Part shown: positions 1 to 11,937 of the stretch, one piece after another
Layout: each line of letters starts with the position of its first letter
Numbering within the stretch: the stretch's first letter is position 1
Assembly (NCBI GenBank): GCA_913057815.1
Contig: CAJXOV010000024.1
Location: 1 to 11,937, forward strand
From: an uncultured Flavobacteriales bacterium
GTDB taxonomy: Bacteria > Bacteroidota > Bacteroidia > Flavobacteriales_D > Sanyastnellaceae
Direction: 5' to 3'
Length of the DNA stretch: 11,937 nucleotides
The notes under the pieces: generated by a model
Told to the model about the DNA's origin: nothing
Databases searched by the model: none
What the model saw: the letters and a program-made list of their open reading frames with translations, nothing else
Made by a program: the position numbers and the translations under genes

Positions 1-31
1 GTCGGCAGCGTCAGATGTGTATAAGAGACAG
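1..31 (+). other. Nextera/Tn5 library adapter (artefact)
   Basis: The first 31 bases match the Illumina Nextera read-1 adapter: a short primer part followed by the 19-base Tn5 mosaic end AGATGTGTATAAGAGACAG at 13-31. This is not genomic sequence. Its exact inverse complement ends the window, so the two look like terminal inverted repeats of a transposon but are not. The ATG at 15 lies inside the adapter and creates a false start for the first gene. Confidence 0.97.
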
Positions 32-32
32 A

Positions 33-1181
33 GCCATACGTATTCAAAGCGAACGTACAGCCCAAAAAGAGCATTCGGTTCCTCTTTATCTCACCAGCAG
101 TTTTACTTTTGATTCTACCGAAGAAGGAGCTGCTATTTTCGCTGGAGAAACTCAAGGCAATCTATATTCTCGGTTTTCCAATCCCAATACGGATGAGTTC
201 ATCGAAAAGATGTGCGCACTGGAAAAGTGTGAGTCTGGAGTGGCCACTGCCAGCGGAATGGCAGCGGTGAACACTGCTCTCATGGCACATTTAAAAACTG
301 GCGATCATGTGGTAGCGGCCAGCGCTATTTTTGGGAATTCAAGGTATATTCTTTCTGAGATTTTGAAAGGGTTTGGTGTGGAATGTACTTTTGTAGAAGT
401 AGATAATAGTGTTTCTTGGGAAGAAGCGATTCTACCTAATACCAAGCTACTATTTGTAGAAACTCCTTCCAATCCAACTCTGAAAATTGCGGATTTAAAA
501 TTCCTGGGTGAGCTTTGTAATGCGCATGATATTATTTATGTGGTAGATAACTGTTTTGCAACACCTGTGCTACAAATTCCAGTAGATTCCGGAGCAGACT
601 TAGTTCTTCATTCTGCCACTAAGTATATAGATGGTCAGGGGCGTGTTTTGGGTGGCTGCATAGTAGGGAGCGAAAAATTTGTAAAACCATGTTATGACTA
701 TATCAGAAGAACAGGGGCTTCTCTGTCGCCATTTAACGCTTGGATACTTTCTAAAAGTTTAGAAACTTTAGCTATTAGAATGGATAGGCACTGTGCTTCT
801 GCAGTGTTGGTAAATGAGTTCTTAAAATCAGAATCGGAAATTGATTTCACCATTTATCCGCATGATGGAGACCATCCAAATTTCATTTTAGCCAAGCGTC
901 AGATGAAACAGGGAGGAGGTTTAGTAGGTTGTCAAGTAGCTGGCGGAAAAGAAAGAGGCGCACGTTTTTTAAATGCGTTAAACATGATTTCACTCACTGC
1001 TAATCTAGGAGATTCTAGAACCATAGCTACGCACCCAGCCTCTACTACACATTCTAAATTGTCTTCAGAAAGTCAATTAGAAGTAGGAATTACACCAGGA
1101 TTTATCCGCTTTTCAGTAGGGTTAGAACATCCCGAAGACATCATCAATGACATTAACCAAGCACTCCAAAAATCGAAATAA
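33..1181 (+). CDS. metZ: O-acylhomoserine sulfhydrylase (MetZ-like), 5' partial
   Basis: PLP-dependent enzyme of the Cys/Met metabolism family. The likely reaction is O-succinyl- or O-acetylhomoserine plus sulfide to homocysteine, in the cytoplasm. About 382 native residues are present. Family motifs visible are YSRFSNPNT near the N-terminus, ATASGMAA, the VVDNCFATP segment with the PLP-binding Asp, and the Schiff-base lysine in HSATKYIDGQGR (AAG codon at 621-623). The C-terminus is complete, ending in the typical GFIRFSVGLEHPEDI block. The 5' end is cut by the library adapter; the open frame continues into it and begins falsely at 15 with the residues MCIRDR. By comparison with the family only some ten N-terminal residues should be missing. 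The stop overlaps the next start (TAATG at 1179-1183), so the two genes are translationally coupled. Cystathionine gamma-synthase or gamma-lyase are alternatives in the same family, but the acyltransferase next door favours direct sulfhydrylation. Confidence 0.9.
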   Translation, partial: AIRIQSERTAQKEHSVPLYLTSSFTFDSTEEGAAIFAGETQGNLYSRFSNPNTDEFIEKMCALEKCESGVATASGMAAVNTALMAHLKTGDHVVAASAIFGNSRYILSEILKGFGVECTFVEVDNSVSWEEAILPNTKLLFVETPSNPTLKIADLKFLGELCNAHDIIYVVDNCFATPVLQIPVDSGADLVLHSATKYIDGQGRVLGGCIVGSEKFVKPCYDYIRRTGASLSPFNAWILSKSLETLAIRMDRHCASAVLVNEFLKSESEIDFTIYPHDGDHPNFILAKRQMKQGGGLVGCQVAGGKERGARFLNALNMISLTANLGDSRTIATHPASTTHSKLSSESQLEVGITPGFIRFSVGLEHPEDIINDINQALQKSK

Positions 1182-4100
1182 TGAACCCACATAATTACCT
1201 ATTAACTTCCCCCTACAAACTAGAGTCTGGAGAACAAATTCCAGATATTACCTTGGCTTATCACACCACAGGAACTTTAAATAAAAACCGTTCTAATGTG
1301 GTTTGGGTTTTCCATGCACTCACTGCTAATTCTGATGTTATGGAATGGTGGCCAGGAGTTTTTGGTTCAGGTCAGGTTTTTAATCCTGAGGAACATTTTA
1401 TCATTTGCGTTAATGTACTGGGCTCACCTTATGGAAGTTCTTTTCCTCAAGGATTAACATTCCCTCAGTTCACGGTTAGAGATGTGGTAGGGCTTCACTT
1501 AAAACTGGCCAAACACTTAGAAATTGACCAAATACAAGTAGCCATAGGAGGTTCTTTTGGTGGAGCGCAAGCACTAGAATTTGCCTACAGTTTTTCTGGG
1601 GGAATAGACCAATTGATTCTCTTAGCATCCAGTGCTAAGGAATCTGCCTGGGGAATAGCAGTGCATGAATCACAGCGACTGGCTTTGGAGTCCGACCCTA
1701 CATTTGGCGAGTTGGGCGGTGGAGCTTTCGGAATGAAAGCAGCCCGTTCAGCAGCTTTACTAACCTACAGAACTAGTGAATCATTTATAGCCACACAAAC
1801 AGATGAAGATGAAAAATTAGACAATTACTTGGCCTCCTCTTACATTCAATACCAAGGAGACAAATTCGTAAAACGATTTAACGCACTGAGCTATTACTAC
1901 CTATCAAAATGCCTGGATAGCCATAGCATAGGTAGAGACAGAGGTGGCGTAGAATACGCGCTGAGCAAAATTCAAATACCTACGCTAGTGATAGGTATAA
2001 CTTCGGATGCCCTGGTTCCAGTTAGACTCCAGCAATTTCTAGCTGAATACCTGCCCAACTCTGCCTATAGAGAATTAGAATCTGAATATGGACATGATGG
2101 ATTCTTAGTAGAAACGGTGAAAATCTCAAGCGAGATTAAGGACTTTTTATCTCCTAAGTACTTAACTAAACTCAAAAAGCGAACAGTGTTAAAATTTGGC
2201 GGAACATCTCTGGCCAATGGTCAACCCATAGAAGCCGTATTGGAAATTATTTTTAATCAAGCTAAAGAAAAATCTCTGGCACTAGTGGTTTCTGCTAAAG
2301 ATGATTCTACCGACAGGTTAGAAACCCTTTATATGAAAGCTGTTAAAGGAGAATCATTTGCTAAAGAATTAGATGAATTTATAGCGTTGCAATACTATGA
2401 TGGACTTCCGTTTTTAGCCGACAAATGCAAGAACTCTCTCTCTACTAAGCTAGAAGCACTATCTCTGCTTAACATGGATTCTGAAACAGTTAAAAATGAA
2501 ATCTTAGCAGCAGGTGAACTTATTAGCGCGTTGCAAATCACTGAGCTTCTAAAATCAAGAGGGTTAAAAGCTGAATTCATTGATGCCCGTGAAGTGATTT
2601 GGAAAAAAGAAAATGGATTGGTCGATAATTTGACCTCCAAAGTCTTAGTGAACAAAAGGCTAGAACTCATAGATGACCAAACAATTCCTGTATTTACTGG
2701 TTATATAGTTTCTAATCAAAAGGGACAAACTAGTAACCTAGGGAGAAACGGGTCTAATTATTCTGCTACGCTGCTGGCATCATTCATTCAAGCAGAAGAG
2801 GTGCAGAACTGGACGAACATAGATGGCGTCTATTCTGCTAGCCCGAAATATGTGCATAATGCTGCTAAAATTTCGGCATTATCATATAAGGAGGCCAATG
2901 AGTTAGCCAACTTTGGCGCCAGTATTCTCCATGCTAAAACTATTAAACCACTTATAGCGGCTAAAATTCCGCTGCTCATAAAGTCCACCCTGAATCCTAA
3001 AGCCGAAGGAACTCTTATCTCAGATCAAAAATCAGGGAAAGGAATGAAGGCCGTGAGTGTTATAGAAGATGTAGCATTAATTAAAATCCAAGGTTCCGGA
3101 CTATTAGAAAACATAGGAATTGATGGCAGAATATTCTCTACACTAGGACGGCTAAACATATCTATAAGAGTAATCAGTCAAGCGAGTTCTGAGCGTGGAA
3201 TAGGTTTTGTCATAGACCAATGCGATCAGTACCAAGCTCAAAAAGCGCTACTCACAGAGTTCGAGAAAGAACTAAAATCAGGAGAGGTATCAGTCATATC
3301 TGCAGATACTAATATGTCTATTATAGCCATTCTAGGAAGGCATAATTACTCATTAGAGAAAGCTATTGGCGGACTGCGAAGAAATAAGATTTGGCTACAC
3401 CTTATTAGCAATAGTATATCTGGTGAGCATATCTCTCTAGTAGTAGAGAATAAGCATCTCAAGAAAGCAGTAAATGTGGTTCACAATGAGGTGTTTGGTG
3501 TGACTAAAACATTGAACGTGTTCGCGTTTGGAAAAGGTACTGTAGGCGGAAGATTCTTAGACCAACTAGAGCAAACTACCTTAGAAACTGAGAAACACCG
3601 AGGTTTAAAAATTAGCCTTGTAGGTGTGGCAGATTCTAAAAAAGCTGTTTTCTGTGAATCTGGAATAAACGGCTGGGAAGAGCAATTGAAATACGCTACT
3701 CTTTCTAATCATCCAGAAGATGTTATCCAAATCCTTAAAGCGTCTGGTTTATCTGATATTGTGTTAGTAGATAATACTTCCTCCGAAGAAGTTACCGGAG
3801 CTTATGAGCTGTTTACTCAAGCCGGATTTGATTTAGTAGCTTCTAACAAAAAGGGGAATTCTTCTTCGTATGAATCCTATAAAAGCTTACGCGAAACGCT
3901 CCAGAAATCTGGCAAACAGTTTCTGTATGAGACCAATGTAGGTGCTGGATTGCCCATTATTGATACACTAAAGCATCTTAGGAATTCAGCCGATGTAATT
4001 ACCAGAGTAACAGGCGTTTTTAGTGGTTCTCTTAGTTACATTTTCAACCAATTCTCAGAGCTAGATGTTCCTTTTTCAAAAGTAATGTTAGAAGCCAGAG

Positions 4101-4567
4101 AAAAAGGATTTACAGAACCAGACCCTAGAGAAGATTTAAGTGGATTAGATGTAGCTAGAAAACTATTAATCTTAGCCAGAGAACTCGGCACTACCTCAGA
4201 AATGGAAGAGGTAGAAATAGAGAACTTGGTTCCCGAAACATTGCAACGCATAGCTTCTTATGAGGATTTTATAGCAGAAAAAGACCATTTAGACAGCTAC
4301 TATGCTGAACTAAAAAAGTCATTAAAAGAAGGATCTGTATTTAGATACACAGGAGATCTAAATTTAATAACCAACAAACTTAAAGTCTCTCTGGTGCAGG
4401 TAGAAAAAGAAACTCCACTTGGAAGCATTAAAAATGCAGACGCCATCATAGAGATTTATTCAGAAACCTACGGAGACCAACCCATGATTATTCAAGGTGC
4501 TGGGGCAGGTGCTGCGGTAACAGCCAGAGGTGTGTATTCGGATGTCGTAAGGTTAGGGAAAAGCTAG
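1181..4567 (+). CDS. MetX / aspartate kinase / homoserine dehydrogenase triple fusion
   Basis: One uninterrupted 1128-residue frame carries three enzymes. Residues 1 to about 325 are an alpha/beta-hydrolase homoserine O-acyltransferase (MetX type): HALTAN at 45-50, nucleophile elbow GGSFGG with Ser125, and Asp276 and His305 as the likely rest of the triad. Residues about 335-620 are aspartate kinase: KFGGTS at 338-343, AGELISA near 444, and the NIDGVYSASPK block near 546. Residues about 625-770 are ACT-type regulatory sequence, including the SQASSERGIGF segment. Residues about 778-1128 are homoserine dehydrogenase: NAD(P) loop FGKGTVGG at 783-790, ETNVGAGLPIIDTL at 917-930 and DPREDLSGLDVARK at 981-994. 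The last two-thirds have the length and order of a ThrA-type bifunctional enzyme. The protein would phosphorylate aspartate, reduce aspartate semialdehyde to homoserine, and acylate homoserine for the neighbouring sulfhydrylase. The acyl donor (acetyl- or succinyl-CoA) cannot be read from sequence. The ACT region suggests amino-acid feedback control. Confidence 0.93.
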   Translation: MNPHNYLLTSPYKLESGEQIPDITLAYHTTGTLNKNRSNVVWVFHALTANSDVMEWWPGVFGSGQVFNPEEHFIICVNVLGSPYGSSFPQGLTFPQFTVRDVVGLHLKLAKHLEIDQIQVAIGGSFGGAQALEFAYSFSGGIDQLILLASSAKESAWGIAVHESQRLALESDPTFGELGGGAFGMKAARSAALLTYRTSESFIATQTDEDEKLDNYLASSYIQYQGDKFVKRFNALSYYYLSKCLDSHSIGRDRGGVEYALSKIQIPTLVIGITSDALVPVRLQQFLAEYLPNSAYRELESEYGHDGFLVETVKISSEIKDFLSPKYLTKLKKRTVLKFGGTSLANGQPIEAVLEIIFNQAKEKSLALVVSAKDDSTDRLETLYMKAVKGESFAKELDEFIALQYYDGLPFLADKCKNSLSTKLEALSLLNMDSETVKNEILAAGELISALQITELLKSRGLKAEFIDAREVIWKKENGLVDNLTSKVLVNKRLELIDDQTIPVFTGYIVSNQKGQTSNLGRNGSNYSATLLASFIQAEEVQNWTNIDGVYSASPKYVHNAAKISALSYKEANELANFGASILHAKTIKPLIAAKIPLLIKSTLNPKAEGTLISDQKSGKGMKAVSVIEDVALIKIQGSGLLENIGIDGRIFSTLGRLNISIRVISQASSERGIGFVIDQCDQYQAQKALLTEFEKELKSGEVSVISADTNMSIIAILGRHNYSLEKAIGGLRRNKIWLHLISNSISGEHISLVVENKHLKKAVNVVHNEVFGVTKTLNVFAFGKGTVGGRFLDQLEQTTLETEKHRGLKISLVGVADSKKAVFCESGINGWEEQLKYATLSNHPEDVIQILKASGLSDIVLVDNTSSEEVTGAYELFTQAGFDLVASNKKGNSSSYESYKSLRETLQKSGKQFLYETNVGAGLPIIDTLKHLRNSADVITRVTGVFSGSLSYIFNQFSELDVPFSKVMLEAREKGFTEPDPREDLSGLDVARKLLILARELGTTSEMEEVEIENLVPETLQRIASYEDFIAEKDHLDSYYAELKKSLKEGSVFRYTGDLNLITNKLKVSLVQVEKETPLGSIKNADAIIEIYSETYGDQPMIIQGAGAGAAVTARGVYSDVVRLGKS

Positions 4568-4593
4568 GAAATATCATAGATTGCACTCATTCC

Positions 4594-7630: not shown

Positions 7631-7673
7631 TATCAAGAGAACCTAATTATTAGTTTCACAGTAAAAAGTGCAT

Positions 7674-8159
7674 ATGAAAGTCAATAAAATAGCCATTATA
7701 GGTTGCGGAAATTTAGGGACATCTATTCTTAATGGATTGATTTCTAGCGAGCATTATTCGAATGCAGCTATCACTGCTACCAGAAGAAAGGTTAGCTCTT
7801 TAGAGAAATACAAGAGCGAAGGTGTGCACATTACAGCAGATAATGCCAAGGCTGTGCAGCAGGCAGATATTCTTCTAATAAGCCTTAAACCATTCAATAT
7901 TCTAGAAGTGTTAGCAGAATTAAAACCTCATTTGACCAAGGATAAAACCATCGTTTCTTTGGCTACTGGCATTAGTATTTCTCAAATTGAAGAAGTAGTA
8001 GGTTCAGATATGTCTATTTATAGAGCCATGCCCAATACGGCTGCAGATGTGAAAGAATCGCTCACATGTATCTGCGCCAATCATGCCATTTCTGAAGAGG
8101 ATGAAGTGACTGAAATATTTAACTCTGTAGGGAAATCTATAGTTATAGAAGAAGGGTAA
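7674..8159 (+). CDS. proC: pyrroline-5-carboxylate reductase, N-terminal half (proC interrupted)
   Basis: This is the NAD(P)-binding half of ProC, which reduces 1-pyrroline-5-carboxylate to proline in the last step of proline synthesis. The ATG at 7674 is preferred to an in-frame GTG at 7668 because it gives the usual MKVNKIAIIGCGNLG start. Visible motifs are the dinucleotide loop GCGNLG at 10-15, LLISLKP at 67-73 and the family signature RAMPNTAADVKESLT at 117-131. The frame stops after 161 residues at a TAA (8157-8159). The same reading frame continues at once with the C-terminal half. A single base change from a sense codon (for example TTA, Leu) would restore a protein of about 263 residues, normal for ProC. 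It is therefore either a nonsense mutation, a consensus error, or a gene expressed as two halves. Confidence 0.9.
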   Translation: MKVNKIAIIGCGNLGTSILNGLISSEHYSNAAITATRRKVSSLEKYKSEGVHITADNAKAVQQADILLISLKPFNILEVLAELKPHLTKDKTIVSLATGISISQIEEVVGSDMSIYRAMPNTAADVKESLTCICANHAISEEDEVTEIFNSVGKSIVIEEG

Positions 8160-8465
8160 ATGGAAGCTGCCACAGTGCTGGGAGCATGTGGAATAGCTTA
8201 TGTACTCAGATTCATAAGAGGAATGATTCAAGGTGGAATAGAAATAGGATTTAGTGCTAAAGTGGCTACAGATATAGTTACTCATACAGTAAAAGGAGCT
8301 TCTGAGTTATTAATCCAAAACGAAACGCACCCAGAAGCTGAAATAGATAAAGTAACCACTCCTAGAGGCTGCACCATAGCAGGCTTAAACGAAATGGAAC
8401 ACAACGGGTTTAGTTCTGCACTTATTAAAGGAATAGTTACTTCTTATGAGAAAATACCTTCTTAG
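8160..8465 (+). CDS. proC: pyrroline-5-carboxylate reductase, C-terminal half (proC interrupted)
   Basis: 101 codons in the same frame as the N-terminal half encode the helical dimerisation domain of ProC. Motifs are MEAATVLGACGIAYVLRFI at the start, TVKGASELLIQ, and the conserved EIDKVTTPRGCTIAGLNEMEHNGFSSALIKGI block that in relatives forms part of the substrate and dimer site. The ATG at 8160 is the codon straight after the premature TAA and matches an internal residue of intact homologues, so it is probably not an evolved start. A terminating ribosome could still restart there. All conserved positions I can judge look undamaged, which argues for a very recent stop or an error. The end lies 7 bases from the end of the convergent MATE gene. 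Confidence 0.85.
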   Translation: MEAATVLGACGIAYVLRFIRGMIQGGIEIGFSAKVATDIVTHTVKGASELLIQNETHPEAEIDKVTTPRGCTIAGLNEMEHNGFSSALIKGIVTSYEKIPS

Positions 8466-11311: not shown

Positions 11312-11906
11312 CGTTTGATTTTTTAATAATTTGATTGTTCATTTTATAACTGATCCCAAATAGCATAAGGCCATTGGTTTTTTCTATGTTAGCTGCTGTT
11401 TGATTGTTGAAAATGAGACTATGTGTAGCGTTTAAGGCTAGATTTTTAAGTACCTTATAATTGATGTTTATAGTATTATTGAATCCCCAAAATTTTGAGT
11501 TAGAAGTTGGGTGAAACGATTGTAAATCCCACATAAAGGACATTCGCGGTGCAATCGGACTTTGAACTTTTAATAACAACCCACCAACAGGGCTTGAAAG
11601 GTTCTCATCTCCTTTGAACTTAAAGTCCAAATACCCTGCAAATCCGCTCACTCTAATAAAGTCTTGTGAATTTTTATTTCGAATATTCACACCTAATCCT
11701 CCTCCTGCTATTACCGAATAATCTATCTGATATGATCTAGAAGTTCCATAACGTACAGTTGCCATCGGAAAGAAGCGATTATCGGTTTTGTGCTGGTAGA
11801 ATCCATACGACCAGAAATCATTTTGAACCAAAAAATCGTTTACTTCTAAGTAGTGGTAATCAGCTCTAAATTCCAAGAGTGATGATTTCTTGGAGAATGA
11901 TATTAG
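11292..11906 (-). CDS. outer-membrane beta-barrel protein, 5' partial (DUF481-like?)
   Basis: The last 205 or so residues of an envelope protein; the 5' end is lost at the library adapter. The open frame runs into the adapter and falsely starts at 11921 with the residues MYKRQ. The native part consists of repeated amphipathic beta-strands with aromatic girdles and short turns, for example LEFRADYHYLEV, YQIDYSVIAGGGLGVNI, FIRVSGFAGYLDFKF, NTININYKVL and GLMLFGISYKM. This is typical of an outer-membrane barrel. The general pattern, with Gly-rich strands and a closing GISYKM-type strand, is compatible with DUF481-family barrels, but this assignment is tentative. The stop lies inside the next gene (20-base overlap), indicating translational coupling with the lipoprotein. 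Confidence 0.7.
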   Translation of the reverse strand, partial: LISFSKKSSLLEFRADYHYLEVNDFLVQNDFWSYGFYQHKTDNRFFPMATVRYGTSRSYQIDYSVIAGGGLGVNIRNKNSQDFIRVSGFAGYLDFKFKGDENLSSPVGGLLLKVQSPIAPRMSFMWDLQSFHPTSNSKFWGFNNTININYKVLKNLALNATHSLIFNNQTAANIEKTNGLMLFGISYKMNNQIIKKSNDELENY

Positions 11907-11937
11907 CTGTCTCTTATACACATCTGACGCTGCCGAC
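11907..11937 (-). other. Nextera/Tn5 library adapter (artefact)
   Basis: The last 31 bases are the exact reverse complement of bases 1-31, starting with the Tn5 mosaic end CTGTCTCTTATACACATCT at 11907-11925. This is residual library adapter, not genomic sequence. The nine bases inside each adapter (32-40 and 11898-11906) differ, so there is no target duplication as a real Tn5-type insertion would leave internally. Confidence 0.97.

Follow-up and report, generated by a model that had tools for sequence, protein, structure and literature searches.

A fused MetX, aspartate kinase and homoserine dehydrogenase protein of Bacteroidota with asparagine in the column of the catalytic aspartate of the kinase

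Feedback control by isoenzymes is classically illustrated by the aspartate pathway. Groups of aspartokinases were reportedly treated by Lo et al. in 2009. Proteobacterial fusions of aspartate kinase (AK) and homoserine dehydrogenase (HSD) are treated in Fondi 2007 (PMC1885841), and the stems Bacteroid-, Cytophaga- and Flavobacter- do not occur in its text. GapMind (PMC7311316) deals with other fusions, and PMC10464499 and PMC11609274 have little bearing on the one described here, in which a MetX-like homoserine acyltransferase stands in front of AK and HSD in a single protein. The gene lies in a window of 11,937 nucleotides (the whole stretch of DNA that was analysed) from an uncultured Flavobacteriales bacterium (assembly GCA_913057815.1, contig CAJXOV010000024.1). 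A search by title and start of abstract, confined to papers outside subscription, returned no paper on a MetX-AK-HSD fusion or on such an inactive aspartate kinase.

The fusion had been noticed in a sequence-only reading of the window; this observation was confirmed and its interpretation was partly supported. The best explanation, which we consider probable but far from certain, is a two-step methionine enzyme (HSD, then MetX) that carries a kinase-derived regulatory or scaffold module, with the fusion having arisen at least twice.

Architecture, distribution and repeated origin of the fusion

The open reading frame at 1181-4567 on the forward strand is a single open frame of 1128 residues. 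It is unbroken at 2150-2190, where a stop or frameshift in reads could have undone the fusion. It comprises the following features:

1181..2152, + strand: MetX domain, residues 1-324, with Ser125 (1553-1555), Asp276 (2006-2008) and His305 (2093-2095)
2153..2179, + strand: linker, residues 325-333, a gap between PDB alignments
2180..2986, + strand: aspartate-kinase-fold domain, residues 334-602 (PF00696), columns mapped to E. coli LysC, ThrA and MetL
2987..3496, + strand: two ACT domains, residues 603-772, with Gln667 in the first and Asn744 (3410-3412) in the second
3503..4564, + strand: homoserine dehydrogenase domain, residues 775-1128, with Glu979, Asp990 and Lys994 kept

This layout of MetX, AK with two ACT domains (together residues 334-772) and HSD emerges alike from Pfam, from sequence matches in the PDB and from an AlphaFold model. 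Abhydrolase_1 (40-311), AA_kinase (333-602), NAD_binding_3 (784-917) and Homoserine_dh (925-1123) all score above cut-off, as does ACT_9 in two stretches (best 634-694), and the last four make up a bifunctional AK-HSD in one chain. The protein also exceeds the cut-offs of NF006959, the AK-HSD I equivalog (753.6 against 726 bits), and TIGR00657 (295 against 208.7 bits). In the best PDB matches MetX ends at 319-323 and AK begins at 334-335, which gives a linker of about 10 residues, as the sequence-only reading had estimated; the predicted local distance difference test (pLDDT) of the model falls below 50 at residues 328-330. The model has a mean pLDDT of 87.2 and a predicted template modelling score (pTM) of 0.57, so the domain folds can be trusted and their mutual placement cannot.

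The MetX domain has the alpha/beta-hydrolase fold with a Ser-Asp-His set, and the residues that had been called intact are invariant in 56 aligned fusions. These are the window and 55 of 62 other fusion clusters (alignment A1); P0042, P0048, P0052 and P0056-P0059 were omitted as short. In the domain listing P0056 and P0059 are without PF00742 and P0058 is without a hydrolase domain, and blastp detects all three parts in each. The domain scores under the curated NCBIfam cut-offs (290 bits against 500 for TIGR01392, 254 against 331 for NF001209) and is therefore MetX-like by fold and residues, not by curated models. MetX_acetyl models outscore MetX_succinyl models, all below cut-off. The HSD domain matches PF00742 and has the Glu-Asp-Lys set (yeast Glu208, Asp219 and Lys223) as Glu979, Asp990 and Lys994, with no substitution in any of the 235 aligned AK-HSD rows.

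All 65 window-type fusion rows have 31-34 residues from the His of the GHD motif to the Lys of KFGG. This set counts the window twice (P0001) and one protein twice (L003 = P0013); among its members are P0013 of Luteibaculum oceani, whose contig is 337 kb long, and P0004, whose contig measures 1.8 Mb. This constant spacing argues that the window junction is neither a frameshift nor a chimera, and the fused polypeptide and its domain architecture are confirmed as real.

The architecture is not new, as the sequence-only reading had suspected for related Bacteroidota. Among the best 120 of 7692 protein matches above threshold, 63 hold all three parts (P0001 being the window), 17 are MetX-AK-ACT, 39 are AK-HSD alone and one joins MetX to HSD (P0071). 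Carriers of the window type are Fulvivirga, Luteibaculum oceani, Marinigracilibium and metagenome-assembled genomes (MAGs) of Saprospiraceae and Flavobacteriales. The best 80 of at least 585 loci from named genomes, several of which (L060 and L078 among them) are truncated where their contig stops, comprise 31 single-frame MetX-AK-HSD genes, 29 metX genes adjoining AK-HSD and 20 AK-HSD genes with no MetX nearby; fused and adjacent-gene forms thus both occur, and close relatives do not always have two genes. Among sampled genomes, the full fusion was found in two of the 246 from the order, the window's own included; in the phylum sample of 392 it was found, apart from the own genome, in 16, which all belong to a single family. 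Six further sampled rows covering the whole query contain stops and were excluded. A first scan of genome contigs had found no relatives.

The double origin of the fusion is well supported. We call the window's MetX-AK-HSD lineage type a and that of the Maribacter copy L025 type b. The MetX of 47 fused frames (31 named, 16 sampled) has 27-30% identity with that of the window and 51-90% with that of L025, which was itself left out of the latter comparison. In the MetX tree (76 of 177 eligible rows) the two lineages are separated by branches with lengths of 2.39 and 1.9 changes per column, and each side has stand-alone members. In the AK-HSD tree (104 of 235 eligible rows, frames under 740 residues being ineligible) type-a and type-b partners form sister clades within one methionine clade, apart from ThrA-like proteins, with support by the Shimodaira-Hasegawa-like approximate likelihood ratio test (SH-aLRT) of 98 each and 100; both sister clades mix fused and unfused members. 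Rows outside the tree were labelled by architecture and neighbour. One ancestral fusion was rejected by the MetX divergence and by the approximately unbiased (AU) test on a quick LG+G4 tree, in which a single fused clade costs 1174 log-likelihood units (p-AU 2.9e-5). As the type-b fusions carry MetX of another lineage, MetX was fused at least twice to sister AK-HSD clades. The simplest route is that neighbours in an operon fused, as metX adjoins AK-HSD in unfused relatives.

One type-b fusion (L048, 5938-9372) stands in a record named Marinicella pacifica (Pseudomonadota) and falls within the Bacteroidota clade, by either transfer or contamination.

Altered residues in the kinase and ACT domains

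On the side of the aspartate kinase, the window keeps the equivalents of E. coli LysC Lys8 (K338), Ser39 (S371), Thr45 (T377), Glu119 (E446), Arg198 (R522) and Ser201 (S525), as expected of an active enzyme. Arg232 is replaced by K556, and three further columns are changed, the first of which holds the catalytic aspartate of active kinases:

2756-2758, + strand: Asn526, column of E. coli LysC Asp202
2816-2818, + strand: Asn546, column of E. coli LysC Asp222
2921-2923, + strand: Ser581, column of E. coli LysC Lys257

The Asp202 column is Asn in all 187 methionine-clade rows and Asp in 48 of 48 ThrA-like rows. These counts include the shift of L060, a stretch that ends before any MetX and carries Asn, from the ThrA-like to the methionine clade; the shift uses the trait itself, and the counts before it are 186/186 Asn against 48/49 Asp. 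Among distinct sequences, Asp202 is kept in 0/100 of type a and 0/85 of type b (0/185 in the methionine clade), Asp222 in 82/100 and 1/85, Lys257 in 5/100 and 2/85, Arg232 in 10/100 and 0/85, and Arg198 in 94/100 and 84/85, respectively. The ThrA-like sequences keep Arg232 in 39 of 48 and each of the other four in 48 of 48. Lys8, Ser39, Thr45 and Glu119 equivalents are retained in all rows with letters at those columns.

Presumably LysC Asp202 is the equivalent of Asp162 in N-acetylglutamate kinase (NAGK). NAGK Asp162 is described as a key catalytic residue that positions Lys8 and Lys217, and a mutant at this residue disrupted function (PMC2851564). The aspartate site of LysC includes Asp202 and Ser201 (PMC8092979); Arg198 and Ser201 are reported to bind aspartate and Thr221 and Arg232 to bind ATP, with Asp222 and Lys257 counted among the key residues of the catalytic site (PMC3195717). 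The pattern of residues thus indicates that the aspartate side is retained and the phosphoryl-transfer side changed, more so in type b. Asp202 is present in E. coli LysC, ThrA and MetL and in five solved aspartokinases. In each of the 19 tested genomes with the fusion or adjacent-gene form, one or more other aspartate kinases score over cut-off, and Asp202 is kept in 31 of 31 of those compared (15 ThrA-like and 16 monofunctional frames, the latter from a longer list).

In the five of eight within-genus pairs whose dS was usable, the ratio of nonsynonymous to synonymous substitution rates (dN/dS) of the AK domain is 0.02-0.11, like that of MetX and HSD; all pairs are of type b, and dS was saturated in 7 of the 24 domain comparisons and above 1 in several more. 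Judged by these ratios, the AK domain is otherwise under purifying selection, with no apparent decay beyond the altered columns.

Asn at 526 also occurs in 17 of 17 MetX-AK-ACT proteins without a dehydrogenase. These have 769-810 residues (P0070, P0074, P0084-P0086, P0091, P0093-P0095, P0101, P0103-P0106, P0108, P0109 and P0116); a scan of 396 genomes for this form matched only the window's own genome (E 1e-170). The 655-residue P0071 joins MetX to HSD and is missing window residues 327-842 (kinase and ACT), either through a genuine internal deletion or because its 3.9-kb contig was misassembled.

An uncultured Flavobacteriales contig (L083) carries a SAM (S-adenosylmethionine) riboswitch, metY (61% identical), metX (51%) and an unfused AK-HSD in a row:

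6416-8386 of L083: methionine-type AK-HSD frame with no recognisable kinase N-lobe

The frame, among those too short for the tree, aligns to the window kinase only from about residue 522-529 onward, while the window N-lobe carries the active-site columns up to 522; tblastn found this N-lobe in no frame of L083 (best E 7.7, elsewhere). The C-lobe with ACT (40%) and the dehydrogenase (49%, cut by the contig end) are retained. With P0064 as query the alignment starts further upstream, at P0064 residue 151, and a shrunken remnant of the N-lobe may be left. If real, L083 does without the kinase active site yet retains the ACT and dehydrogenase parts.

In the first ACT domain Gln667 is retained in every row. 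At position 744 of the second, where threonine-sensitive ThrA has Gln in the ligand loop, the window has Asn; all 187 methionine-clade rows have Asn, His or Ser there, all 48 ThrA-like rows have Gln, and the loop 719-733 is rewritten (GRHNYSLEKAI in the window). We take this Gln to be the threonine-binding residue. The changes fit a loss of classical threonine control and possibly a new ligand.

Methionine context and weighing of the explanations

Directly upstream of the fusion lies its neighbour in the operon:

15..1181, + strand: metY/metZ-type O-acylhomoserine sulfhydrylase, 5' truncated (PF01053, 390 bits)

It scores below the NF006003 cut-off (477 against 522 bits), and its stop overlaps the fusion start by one base (TAATG). 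As its first codons fall in adapter-like sequence at the contig end, the true start lies beyond the window. In Luteibaculum oceani (99% complete, taken as the genome whose frame contains P0013) the one PF00742 match is the fusion. The own genome gives the same picture, with the fusion as the only HSD found and one aspartate-semialdehyde dehydrogenase (Asd) present. No thrB or thrC over cut-off was found in Luteibaculum or in the own genome (80% complete).

A SAM riboswitch stands upstream of the metY-fusion genes on a Luteibaculum stretch (L162, 90.5 bits; the shorter stretch L003 showed none). All 11 type-b fused loci scanned (L022, L025, L048, L023, L024, L026-L030 and L034) likewise have one, ahead of either the metY-like gene or the fusion itself. 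In the unfused operons L004, L038, L040, L044, L061 and L065, some of them short stretches, none was above threshold on the same strand; L061 has a SAM-II on the opposite strand. The proposal that the product serves methionine thus held up on metY adjacency, riboswitches in relatives and the gene content of Luteibaculum, and a methionine-dedicated fusion product is well supported. The puzzle that the sequence-only reading saw in ACT domains of a kind that normally responds to threonine-branch products was weakened: the second ACT domain has lost its Gln and neither thrB nor thrC scored over cut-off in the two genomes, so that one would not expect control by threonine.

In the best explanation, the C-terminal dehydrogenase would convert aspartate semialdehyde to homoserine, the N-terminal MetX domain would acylate it and the neighbouring metY product would then add sulfide. 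The kinase-fold domain would most likely no longer phosphorylate aspartate at a useful rate and would serve as a regulatory or scaffold module, possibly a sensor of aspartate or of an end product; the cell's other intact aspartate kinases would provide the semialdehyde. The fusion would have come about when metX was joined to the gene following it in a metY-metX-(AK-HSD) operon, at least twice and with different MetX lineages. From the aligned columns we infer that the kinase domain is probably inactive and that the kinase-fold module may act in regulation; a benefit of coupling, such as channelling between dehydrogenase and acyltransferase, is speculation. Of the three enzymes originally claimed, dehydrogenase and acyltransferase are thus safe on their residues, and the kinase is questionable without the catalytic Asp. 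Dehydrogenase and acyltransferase being consecutive steps, the lack of aspartate-semialdehyde dehydrogenase in the fusion, previously remarked on as a gap, is easier to understand if this protein does not carry out the kinase step. A bolder version, possible but tentative in our view, would have a clade-wide pseudo-kinase that still binds aspartate in a conserved pocket and, with the remodelled second ACT, gates HSD and MetX, the pair having been joined at least twice, and that regulates MetX directly in the dehydrogenase-less proteins.

Several points weigh against the best explanation. The strong conservation of the AK domain is equally compatible with an active enzyme, and catalysis may still proceed with Asn replacing Asp. 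The loss of Lys257 was rejected as proof of a dead kinase, as other kinases lack it too: the column is Pro in E. coli MetL and Ser or Thr in monofunctional GREGSD-type kinases, which keep the Asp. L083 is one draft MAG contig in which an assembly deletion is possible. In the Bacteroidales operons L065, L070, L075 and L077 metX adjoins an AK-HSD in which Asp, Lys257 and the ACT Gln are all retained; these are ThrA-like (L077 is not in the tree), so that Asn marks the methionine clade and not metX adjacency itself. The trees are quick searches with SH-aLRT as their only support. At 80% completeness, the missing thrB, thrC and second dehydrogenase carry little weight in the own genome, and as the window's leader lies off the contig, the riboswitch evidence is that of relatives. 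The only SAM riboswitch in the own genome (G000, contig C92) was rejected as the leader of the metY-fusion operon, as it precedes a metH-like frame (named from its letters).

Among the rivals, a trifunctional enzyme whose kinase works with Asn, covering steps 1, 3 and 4 of the methionine route like MetL plus MetX, deserves attention but seems doubtful. It would account for the NF006959 and TIGR00657 scores, the kept Lys8, Ser39, Thr45 and Glu119 equivalents and the purifying selection, and MetL also does without Lys257; yet the catalytic Asp is gone clade-wide and retained by the ThrA-like sisters, type b has also lost Asp222 and Arg232, Asp-bearing kinases are present in all 19 genomes and L083 is without the kinase N-lobe. 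That the protein is an ordinary threonine-pathway ThrA with MetX attached, feeding threonine and methionine under threonine control, is highly improbable. The first ACT Gln is kept, the AK-ACT fold matches a threonine-sensitive aspartokinase and the four Bacteroidales loci do pair metX with ThrA-like AK-HSD, but the clade is separate from the ThrA-like proteins, the second ACT Gln is lost in all 187 rows, thrB and thrC had no match over cut-off in Luteibaculum or the own genome, SAM riboswitches stand upstream in relatives and, in 15 of the 16 type-b fusion genomes tested, a ThrA-like AK-HSD with Asp is present as well. An assembly or annotation artefact joining neighbouring genes would fit the adapter remnants at the contig ends and the fragmented assembly of 627 contigs; it was rejected for the architecture and has next to no probability, given the one open frame, single-frame fusions with the same junction in 62 other clusters and 31 named loci, and several fusions in cultured strains on long contigs.

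If the best explanation is true, records named 'bifunctional aspartate kinase/homoserine dehydrogenase', several of them among the protein matches, claim an absent activity, and the aspartate pathway offers a metabolic pseudo-kinase that can be compared directly with its active sisters. That distant MetX lineages were repeatedly fused to one partner suggests that coupling of both steps was selected for.

Flanking genes and comparison with known systems

Downstream of the fusion, the block ends as follows:

4568..4593, strand not applicable: right boundary of the metY-fusion block, from blastn of the window against L159 and L160

Same-genus DNA similarity starts at 4577, ten bases past the fusion stop. 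In two same-genus genomes the window's downstream genes are collinear and an SDR-like (short-chain dehydrogenase/reductase-like) gene, named by its letters, replaces the fusion; both are without the metY-fusion block in fused or split form, so the block was either gained in the window genome or lost in these relatives. A misbinned contig was rejected: the window's proC, SDR/DUF2867, FMN reductase, DoxX and Crp-like genes have collinear counterparts of 66-99% identity in G002 and G003 (FMN reductase and DoxX matched in G002 only), two genomes that lack the block. Neither PF00742 nor ThrC was matched in G001 and G003 (the latter 99% complete), and G002 has ThrC and a short dehydrogenase match containing two TGA codons. 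The window's proC (pyrroline-5-carboxylate reductase, 7668-8465) has an in-frame TAA at 8157-8159, and in G002 and G003 the frame is unbroken with 264 residues. Positions 1-32 and 11906-11937 are inverted copies of a sequence that we take to be a transposase adapter, with a similar end on contig C92, which explains the spurious MCIRDR/MYKRQ starts of the end frames.

Among known systems, the mycobacterial stand-alone MetX homoserine O-acetyltransferases (5w8o, 6iog) share the fold and the Ser-Asp-His triad, whereas the window's MetX is fused, has shorter loops and falls below the curated cut-offs. E. coli ThrA and the Bacteroidota ThrA-like AK-HSD have the same AK-ACT-ACT-HSD order, and the window protein passes NF006959, but it belongs to a separate clade in which the Asp202 and second-ACT Gln equivalents are replaced. 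E. coli MetL (aspartate kinase II-homoserine dehydrogenase II), next to metB, resembles the window in that AK-HSD stands directly behind a gene for a pyridoxal-phosphate enzyme of Cys/Met metabolism and in the lost Lys257 equivalent; in contrast, it keeps the catalytic Asp and has no MetX domain, and the window protein is below the AK-HSD II cut-off (561 against 582). The single genes of Flavobacteriaceae (Maribacter, Muricauda, Tenacibaculum, Lutibacter and others) have the same architecture and Asn, with a metY-like gene near most loci. They differ in a MetX of the other lineage and an AK-HSD of the sister clade, and 15 of the 16 sampled fusion genomes of this family carry the Asp-bearing ThrA-like AK-HSD beside the fusion.

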